44,727 bases of DNA, taken from NCBI GenBank assembly GCA_016873155.1, contig VGXX01000007.1, positions 1-44,727 on the forward strand, in the 5' to 3' direction. The notes beneath the pieces are model-generated. The model saw only the letters and a list, made by a program, of their open reading frames with translations. It ran no database searches and was not told the DNA's origin. The translations under genes were made by a program, and so were the position numbers. This DNA comes from Planctomycetota bacterium. GTDB taxonomy: Bacteria; Planctomycetota; Brocadiia; Brocadiales; Brocadiaceae. Shown here in pieces: positions 31,392 through 33,657 of this stretch (position 1 is its first letter; every line of letters starts with the position of its first letter).

Positions 31392-32393
31392 TTGAAAATA
31401 TTTATTAAGCATTATTTTTTATCAATATTCATTGTCATCATTGTCCATACCATTTCTTACGGGGCTGCGAGCAATTATAGCCATCAGAGCATAAACTCAA
31501 TTAAGGCCATCGTGGATGATGAAATCATCACTCAGGAAGACGTTGTAAAACGCGCTGCCATAGCTATCAAAGAAGCCCAGAATCGTTACAGAGACAATGA
31601 GTTGATGGATAAAATTGATCAAATATTAAAGGATACCCTGGAAGAAGTTATTAACAGGAAGGTGCTGATTAAAGAGGCGACCAAGTTGTTCGGTACAAGT
31701 GAGGCTATGATGAAAGAGGTGGATAAAGAACTGGATTCTTTCGTGAAAGGCGCGGTTAAGAATGTGGGTTCTTTATCAAAATATTACGAAATTGCCGAAG
31801 CCCAGGGGATAAATCCTATCGAAAAGAAAAACGAACTCAAGGAAGATATCATGATAGATAAGATCATGAAGGAAAATGTCCATGATAAAGTGAAAGTCCA
31901 GCCGAAATTGCTGAGACGCTACTATTGCGAGAATATTGACGAATTCCGCCAGAAAAAAGAGGTAAAATTGCGGCATCTCATGGTCAAGTTCTCTGCGCAT
32001 AATAACAATAAAGAAGAAACATTTTCAGTGGCACAAAAGATCATGAAACGCCTTGAAAAAGGCGAGGATTTTTCAACCCTGGCCAAACAACTTTCAGACG
32101 GACCCAATACCGAGAATGGGGGTCTCTGCACCTTTGAGGAGGTAAACGAATTAAGGAAGGACCTTCGGGACGTGGTTTACAGTTTAAAGGACAACAAATG
32201 CAGTAAAATTGTCGAATCTCCCGTCGGCTATCATATTTTCAAAGTAGAACTTATCAAACCCGAAAAAATACAGGAATTCGAAGAAGTTCAGGATGATATT
32301 TATAAAAAACTGTATCGGGAAGAAACCTCCAGATTAAAAAGACAATATATCAACAGTCTGAAACAACATGTCTTTATCAAGGTTATAAACTAA
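31392..32393 (+). CDS. Exported PpiC/SurA-like peptidyl-prolyl isomerase
   Basis: The start is TTG at 31392, with GAGG about seven bases upstream. The protein opens with a signal peptide (KIFIKHYFLSIFIVIIVHTISYG). A SurA-like N-terminal chaperone region follows (SIKAIVDDEIITQEDVVKRA; EEVINRKVLIKEA). A parvulin domain is at about 195-290 (KKEVKLRHLMVKF; GEDFSTLAKQLSDGPNTENGG; SPVGYHIFKVE). It probably assists folding of outer-membrane or periplasmic proteins. It may be co-transcribed with mfd and ends at a very strong terminator that begins within its stop codon. Confidence 0.9.
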   Translation: MKIFIKHYFLSIFIVIIVHTISYGAASNYSHQSINSIKAIVDDEIITQEDVVKRAAIAIKEAQNRYRDNELMDKIDQILKDTLEEVINRKVLIKEATKLFGTSEAMMKEVDKELDSFVKGAVKNVGSLSKYYEIAEAQGINPIEKKNELKEDIMIDKIMKENVHDKVKVQPKLLRRYYCENIDEFRQKKEVKLRHLMVKFSAHNNNKEETFSVAQKIMKRLEKGEDFSTLAKQLSDGPNTENGGLCTFEEVNELRKDLRDVVYSLKDNKCSKIVESPVGYHIFKVELIKPEKIQEFEEVQDDIYKKLYREETSRLKRQYINSLKQHVFIKVIN

Positions 32394-32438
32394 AATAGCC
32401 CGATATTTCACAGCGTTTGTGAAATATCGGGCTATTTT
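32392..32438. terminator. Strong bidirectional intrinsic terminator
   Basis: A perfect 21-bp inverted repeat (32392-32412 and 32418-32438) surrounds the 5-nt loop GCGTT. Each arm starts or ends in AAAA/TTTT, so T tracts follow the hairpin in both directions. It ends the mfd-ppiC unit on the plus strand and could end the candidate minus-strand RNA that starts near 32706. Confidence 0.95.
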
Positions 32439-32706
32439 CCAAACTCCCTCATATCTTTACATCGCCTCCTTTGTTACATAAATTTTTAAAGAGGTTTATA
32501 TAATAAACAGTAGCGAGTAAAGACCAACGCACTTTATATATTTGTTTATTTTTGCTACGTGTGGCTTTATGTCGCTACTGATATTTTCAAAGAACCTCTG
32601 GAGTCGGGGGCGGTTGTTACTTCTCTTTTACTACTCTAAAGGTGTTTTTACCTCGTTTCTTACACCCTCGGGGAACGTTTAACCCCAATAACTCTCCCCC
32701 AACTCC
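32392..32706 (-). ncRNA. Candidate standalone structured RNA, unknown class
   Basis: A minus-strand transcript predicted to start at about 32706 would begin with GGAGTTGGGGG, which pairs over 11 bp with CCCCCGACTCC (plus positions 32600-32610). This helix encloses a GTTAT/GTAAC pair, a GGGG/CCCC hairpin and a GGTGT/ACACC hairpin. A second long hairpin follows: outer stem AGAGGTT/AACCTCT, inner stem CAGTAGCGA/TCGCTACTG, extended by TAAAG/CTTTA, CCA/TGG and CAC/GTG pairs. Two positions pair as G-U only on the minus strand, which supports that polarity. A promoter precedes it and the bidirectional terminator ends it. No downstream minus-strand gene exists, so it is not a leader. I do not recognise the class. 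Confidence 0.6.
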
Positions 32707-32712
32707 AACATA

Positions 32713-32740
32713 ATTATACCACAGAAAGCATCTTTTGCAA
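32713..32740 (-). promoter_or_regulatory. Extended -10 sigma70-type promoter of the candidate RNA
   Basis: On the minus strand TTGCAA (32740-32735), a 16-base spacer ending in TGG, and a perfect TATAAT (32718-32713) form an extended -10 promoter. The first G of the closing helix lies seven bases after the -10 box, the normal initiation distance. Confidence 0.7.
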
Positions 32741-32883
32741 ATTTCAAGAAAAAATAGTTCTGCAAATAGAGTATCTTTATTGACTGCATAAAATGCTTGT
32801 TTTTTTAGATAAAATAAGTATGCTTTGTATAGTAAGAATTTTTACCGTAAATGTTTTATTGAATAATATAAAGGAGTTGAGAA

Positions 32884-33657
32884 ATGAGAAAGTTTTCGAT
32901 ATTGTTTGCTTTGAATGTAACTGTATTAACAATAGTTTCCATACACGGCACATATGCCGGGAAGCCAGCCAAAGCGCCACAGGCTGATGTATATATGAAA
33001 CCCTCACAAGATGCGTCTCCCCAGGAAACATCTTCCCTCTCCGGTAAAATCGTTGAAACGATGAACAGCGGCGGTTATACGTACCTCTGCATCGAAAAGG
33101 ACGGTAAAAAGACTTGGGTGGCAATACCGGAAACAAAGATGTCCGTTGGTGAAAATATATCTTTACCGCCAGGTTATGAAATGGTCAATTTCACCAGCAA
33201 GACACTTAATCGGACGTTTGAGAAAATCGTCTTCACTACAGGTCCCACATCAGCGCATGGGGCATCTGACAAAATGAGTGCACACGGCGGTTCAATGGGC
33301 AGTAAGAGCGCAGATACATCAACAACTGAGAATATAAAGGTAGAAAAGGCTTCCGGCTCGAATGCTTACACAGTGGCAGAAATTTTTGGGAAAAAATCTG
33401 AACTTGACAAAAAAAGTGTTGTTGTCAGCGGTAAGGTTGTGAAGGTATCTGCCGGCATTATGGGAAAAAACTGGCTGCACCTACAGGACGGAAGCGGAGA
33501 TGCAAAGGATGGCAATAATGACCTGGTCGTTACCACTCAGGATATCCCTAAAGTAGGCGATATTGTAACGGCAACCGGAACTTTATATAAGGATAAAGAC
33601 TTTGGGAGTGGTTATAAGTACGATGTAATTATTGAAGAAGCCACTATTAAAAAATAA
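32884..33657 (+). CDS. Exported OB-fold protein (NrfJ-like)
   Basis: The 257-residue protein has a signal peptide (MRKFSILFALNVTVLTIVSIHGTYA) and AAGGAG upstream of its ATG. A first small beta domain (SGKIVETMNSGGYTYLCIEKDGKKTWVAIP) is followed by a His/Gly/Ser-rich linker (GASDKMSAHGGSMGS). The C-terminal OB-fold is at about 155-255 (VVVSGKVVKVSAGIMGKNWLHLQDGSG; VTATGTLYKDKDFGSGYKYDVIIE). This two-part exported protein resembles NrfJ-type proteins found near multihaem cytochrome systems. Its biochemical role is unknown. It converges with the cytochrome gene. Confidence 0.75.
   Translation: MRKFSILFALNVTVLTIVSIHGTYAGKPAKAPQADVYMKPSQDASPQETSSLSGKIVETMNSGGYTYLCIEKDGKKTWVAIPETKMSVGENISLPPGYEMVNFTSKTLNRTFEKIVFTTGPTSAHGASDKMSAHGGSMGSKSADTSTTENIKVEKASGSNAYTVAEIFGKKSELDKKSVVVSGKVVKVSAGIMGKNWLHLQDGSGDAKDGNNDLVVTTQDIPKVGDIVTATGTLYKDKDFGSGYKYDVIIEEATIKK

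Follow-up and report, generated by a model that had tools for sequence, protein, structure and literature searches.

An apparently uncatalogued family of structured RNAs in the anammox order Brocadiales, with a loop that may engage the ribosome

The OLE, GOLLD, ROOL and raiA RNAs are conserved standalone orphan RNAs of limited lineages whose functions long remained obscure, and dual-function RNAs, such as SgrS/SgrT and Spot 42, carry a tiny reading frame. An RNA predicted on the minus strand of a 44,727-nucleotide stretch of DNA from a planctomycete (contig VGXX01000007.1 of assembly GCA_016873155.1; the whole stretch is called the window here) can be set beside these. Like OLE, GOLLD, ROOL and raiA it is a conserved standalone RNA of limited lineages, but it differs from them in architecture and has no Rfam match. 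Like the dual-function RNAs it appears to be a structured regulatory RNA that combines a Shine-Dalgarno (SD)-like sequence with a short frame; however, the anammox frame has 5–9 codons set against the terminator, and searches gave no homology. With 6S RNA it shares a standalone setting, a strong fold and a probable action in trans, but 6S RNA folds into one long hairpin interrupted by a bubble that resembles an open promoter, whereas the anammox RNA has three domains. The CsrB/CsrC and RsmX/Y/Z RNAs are likewise standalone, have a similar length and occur as two to three paralogues per genome, and CsrA is encoded in the window's genome; the anammox RNA differs from them in having no GGA excess.

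The RNA gene is flanked by convergent ppiC (31392–32393, with PPIC domains) on one side and a divergent gene at 32884 on the other; an earlier note on the window had called the latter an OB-fold gene, and it has no Pfam family. The same note had proposed an extended −10 promoter, and TTGCAA, a 16-base spacer and TATAAT, with TGG before the −10 element, were located at 32740–32713, which places the first base of the RNA, a G, at 32706. When 28 homologues were aligned on the −10 element, agreement upstream of −29 (from −70) was mostly about 0.4–0.6 and conservation began sharply at the −35 element, with agreement of 0.9–1.0 in the promoter core at a T, a G, AAA and the TGTG.TATAAT positions. This profile is that of a predicted conserved promoter rather than of generally conserved DNA. 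At the other end, the bidirectional terminator, described previously as 21 bp, is a hairpin in which at least 20 pairs were counted, 7 of them G-C. Since the stem itself has A and T ends, it is usable in both directions. In five copies from genus g11 (L012, L034, L035, L046 and L047) the terminator loop holds an extra insert with its own inverted repeat. Promoter and terminator are thus both present as conserved sequence signals, and by these signals the interval is a predicted standalone RNA gene composed of a promoter, three structured domains (D1–D3) and a terminator (Table 1).

Table 1. Predicted features of the RNA gene, in window positions
Feature	Position	Strand	Remarks
Whole RNA gene, ~314 nt	32393..32706	(−)	Homologues; start placed 7 nt past the −10 element by inference
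Sigma-70-type promoter, −35 TTGCAA (or TTTGCA), extended −10 TGTGGTATAAT	32713..32741	(−)	
Domain D1, closing helix 32706–32696 with 32610–32600	32599..32706	(−)	Covariation; MFE z −4.4
D1 hairpin GGGG-UUAAACGUU-CCCC	32670..32686	(−)	Loop UUNAACGUU in nearly invariant columns
D1 helix 3, GGGUGU 32667–32662 with ACACC 32645–32641	32641..32667	(−)	Rebuilt in relatives
Conserved D1–D2 linker GUUCUUUGAAAAUAU	32581..32595	(−)	UCUUUG invariant in D2 alignment
Domain D2, a long hairpin; closing helix CAGUAGCGA 32580–32572 with UCGCUACUG 32516–32508	32508..32580	(−)	
Domain D3, AAACCUCUUUA 32497–32487 with UGAGGGAGUUU 32451–32441 around purine-rich loop	32441..32497	(−)	
Shine-Dalgarno-like loop AAAGGAGGCGAU	32461..32472	(−)	One mismatch to 16S tail AUCACCUCCUUU
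Mini-frame AUG AGG GAG UUU GGA AAA UAG (MREFGK*)	32432..32452	(−)	Predicted; stop overlaps terminator base
Intrinsic terminator hairpin, common to convergent ppiC	32393..32437	(−)	Stem covaries in relatives

The 315-nt RNA has a minimum free energy (MFE) of −106.3 kcal/mol, compared with −67.0 ± 5.3 for shuffled sequences (z of about −7.4); the z value is −4.95 when the terminator is removed and about −4.4 for D1 by itself. The plus strand reaches −97.4, in keeping with the remark in the earlier note that plus-strand mismatches become G-U pairs on the minus strand. The RNAalifold consensus of 23 full-length copies contains 36 pairs, 24 of which show at least one two-sided change, and compensatory changes were found in 10 of the 15 tested pairs of D1. 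Comparison of the homologous regions therefore supports the proposed helices, which are preserved by compensatory change as in a standalone structured RNA. Because the copies are related, the covariation counts do not represent independent events; the variety of pair types and a slid-partner control nevertheless argue that kinship is not the sole cause of the covariation.

In D1, the 11-bp pairing of GGAGTTGGGGG with CCCCCGACTCC is present as first proposed, and 8 of its 11 pairs are altered on both sides in relatives. The two named D1 helices are 94.5% paired, with a covariation score of 0.486 versus 0.240 ± 0.019 for shuffles, and sliding the partner strand lowers the score to 0.186 or less. 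The GGGG/CCCC hairpin helix is paired in 100% of cases and covaries in two of its four pairs. Its loop, UUNAACGUU, may be T-loop-like, as it fits the T-loop consensus UUNRA, and the partly palindromic AACGUU that it contains could permit a loop-loop dimer. Helix 3 takes different forms across lineages, including GGUGUU/AACACC, GGCAUA/UGUGCC, GAUAUA/UAUAUC and GGGUAC/GUACCU, among others. In D2, which scores 100.2 bits with a covariance model of that domain (R2), the closing helix is 98.6% paired (covariation 0.346 versus 0.157), and in roughly half of the copies three of its pairs have both partners replaced. The inner hairpin proposed previously, CAGTAGCGA/TCGCTACTG, is present. The proposed outer helix AGAGGTT/AACCTCT, in contrast, did not survive comparison: it is complete only in the window copy, 22 relatives retain between one and six of its seven pairs, and the alignment prefers pairing of AAACCTCTTTA with TGAGGGAGTTT.

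A paralogue in the same genome (C19:11537–11898) is 69% identical over almost the full length, and DNA searches gave a match to the element in 20 of 39 relatives. Within the window's family, that of Brocadiaceae-type anammox bacteria, a covariance model built on D1 (R1) matches 30 of 33 genomes, with one to three copies each and E-values, rough given their short calibrations, down to about 1e-18. R2 also matches genomes of families f4 (G037, G328, G334 and G335) and f5 (G027) of the same order, and R1 agrees with R2 for G334 and G335. Elsewhere in the phylum, outside the order Brocadiales, strictly filtered searches with the two models gave no match (294 and 343 genomes), absence outside the family being defined by the sensitivity of the models. 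Weak R1 matches in family f2 (E of 0.08–0.2) appeared chance-like on reading, and the loci in other phyla that a short DNA pattern picked out, together with both virus-contig loci, were not confirmed by the model. Because the confirmed matches include Candidatus Kuenenia hertensis and metagenome-assembled genomes recorded as Candidatus Brocadiaceae or Planctomycetota, we take the host family to be the Brocadiaceae, broadly defined. Hydrazine synthase alpha, for which the window's genome has a gene, is spread across the order, including families in which the RNA was not detected; thus, the RNA does not simply track anammox chemistry.

The domains are not present in every copy. D3 is absent from L014 and L016, and D2 from L026, L030 and L052. 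In genus g6, L014 and L016 keep D1 and D2 but not D3, and L026 and L030 retain the ATGAGGAAG tail along with D1 but have no D2, as though the paralogues had shared out the domains between them. In the copy L015/L053 (G022:C91), the match ends inside the linker before D2 and unrelated sequence follows, which reads as a decaying copy or a rearrangement.

The surroundings of the copies vary. A paralogue lies convergent to pyrI-pyrB in 14 loci from at least four genera and other copies lie elsewhere. No gene consistently follows in the RNA's own orientation among the copies' neighborhoods, and the terminator stands between the RNA and what follows. For these reasons a cis-acting leader, whether a riboswitch, an attenuator or a T-box, is unlikely, and the RNA probably acts in trans. 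Homologues, compensatory changes, a conserved promoter and variable neighbors all bear out the earlier proposal of a standalone RNA of about 315 nt that is non-coding or nearly so.

That proposal had also placed the RNA in no familiar class, and comparison with Rfam revealed no known family: at gathering and relaxed thresholds the RNA had no match and the whole window yielded only a tRNA, while ten homologous loci searched at E ≤ 1 gave only three chance-like snoRNA/miRNA matches. The 6S RNA model (RF00013) leaves the element unmatched, and both the consensus and MFE structures form separate domains and not one rod. A 6S-like match of 40 bits elsewhere in the assembly (L032, G000:C196:2925–3106) is probably the 6S RNA of this genome; as it falls below the Rfam cut-off, it is likely missed by standard annotation. 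The genome's tmRNA (RF00023) lies at C6:37998–38352 with 177.9 bits, and the element is not among the matches of that model. A literature search, with most subscription journals outside its scope, found no described anammox small RNA. We are therefore highly confident that the locus is one copy of an uncatalogued family of structured RNAs found in the anammox order Brocadiales, as judged from the comparative sequence data.

D3 bears most directly on function. Its helix, with 7–11 of 11 pairs in most relatives, is probably real; it is widespread, yet its changes are mainly one-sided and it is weak or fails in several copies. The D3 loop AAAGGAGGCGAT is complementary to the 16S rRNA tail, and the 3′ end of the genome's own 16S rRNA is GGATCACCTCCTTT. 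The D3 loop (AAAGGAGGCGAU, AGGAGGUGAU, AAAGGGGUGU and others) holds the RNA's best anti-SD duplex in 24 of 29 copies. This duplex beats all 15 shuffles in 15 of the 29 copies and is equaled by at least one shuffle in the remaining 14, and purine-rich loops readily match the anti-SD sequence. The earlier statement that the region contains no ORF holds for long frames but not for the mini-frame, which is kept in most relatives: 32 of 34 tabulated copies have a start codon at the corresponding position (31 ATG, 1 GTG), most of them preceded by SD-like purines, while L028 and L034 have ATA in place of ATG. A stop follows within 5–9 codons in most copies and is commonly a TAG at the terminator base. 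The predicted peptides are mostly M-R-[E/K/N]-[F/L/V/Y/W]-x-x; they vary past M-R-[EK], and several length changes break the phase with the terminator TAG, as in g7_L010, where the frame, read by eye, is MRSLGNSLI. With the frame disrupted by some changes in length and the ATG lost from two copies, the signs of coding are suggestive but mixed, and the mini-frame is a candidate coding frame. In genus g9 and family f4, the 3′ part is longer and contains extra hairpins in L101 (L101:1500–1790), L104 and L107; by eye, their frames extend to about 30–38 codons with a similar end (MKVKKQRFDMLLCQEMAREIGKKNYQMLMEMRNLKNKA in L101).

We tentatively suggest that the RNA engages the ribosome through its 30S subunit. 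It would be strongly transcribed from its own promoter, D1 and D2 would fold into a stable body for binding a protein or a target RNA, and the D3 loop would recruit 30S subunits, which might either initiate at the mini-frame or be held there. The RNA could thereby sense or adjust ribosome availability in slow-growing cells. Such an RNA fits the signals of an independent unit, the folded body and the exposed SD-like loop with its start and stop; against it, pairing in the D3 helix would leave the start codon partly occluded. As some copies have no D3 or no D2, the ribosome site is not essential in every copy. Taken as a whole, a new trans-acting family that engages the 30S subunit is our best explanation, one that we hold with less than even confidence. 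Its most specific form, a new anammox class of ribosome-directed RNA in which a two-domain body, an SD loop and a start-stop frame tune or park translation in trans, is doubtful.

The RNA might instead serve at least in part to make a peptide of 5–9 residues (M-R-[E/K]-hydrophobic-...), either as the transcript of a small-peptide gene whose leader is long and structured or as an RNA of dual function. The retained start codon with its upstream purines would suit this, as would the likeness of MREFGK, MREFKQ, MRKFEE, MRKLER and MKRYDIK despite differing DNA, the synonymous AGG, AGA and CGG at codon 2 and the related ends of the three long frames. However, phase with the terminator TAG is inconsistent, L028 and L034 have ATA, the peptide ends are free, L014 and L016 have no frame and the deepest conservation lies in D1 and D2, not in the frame, so that we consider a peptide product unlikely. 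We regard as similarly unlikely a trans-encoded regulator of antisense type that pairs with mRNAs through the linker UUCUUUGAAAAUAUC (UUCUUUGAAAAUAU) or the D1 loop. These are the least variable unpaired parts of the RNA, as is usual for seeds, but the best pairing of the linker with 16S rRNA (−14.7 kcal/mol) is no better than that of shuffles, and the body is bigger and more structured than in typical pairing RNAs. Titration of CsrA through GGA motifs, as by CsrB or RsmZ, is improbable: the genome has a CsrA gene, the size, copy number and intergenic setting recall CsrB/CsrC and D3 contains AAGGAGG and AGGGAG, but the GGA and ANGGA counts in 29 copies approximate those of dinucleotide shuffles, with 0–5 unpaired GGA per copy.

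Two to three copies per genome in different places, with strong inverted repeats, could point to a mobile-element remnant (a MITE or a retron-like or transposon-associated RNA), which is very improbable given that one copy stays beside pyrI-pyrB across genera, that plasmids gave no match and phages a single marginal one (13% of the query, E of 9e-3) and that the model rejected the two virus-contig pattern matches. Size and conservation, in a poorly studied order, would also fit a housekeeping RNA (6S, tmRNA, RNase P or SRP RNA) in a diverged or additional copy, but this can be set aside as highly improbable, as the genome has a separate 6S-like match and a clear tmRNA, and RNase P and SRP RNA, covered by the Rfam scans alone, were not matched.

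Anammox bacteria return fixed nitrogen to the air, and to our knowledge little has been described of RNA regulation in them. Present in nearly all genomes of one family and in two more families, and described by delimited domains and a covariance model, the RNA offers a concrete target for existing transcriptomes. If the proposed link of this RNA to the ribosome is true, it would represent a new way to adjust translation in very slow-growing cells.
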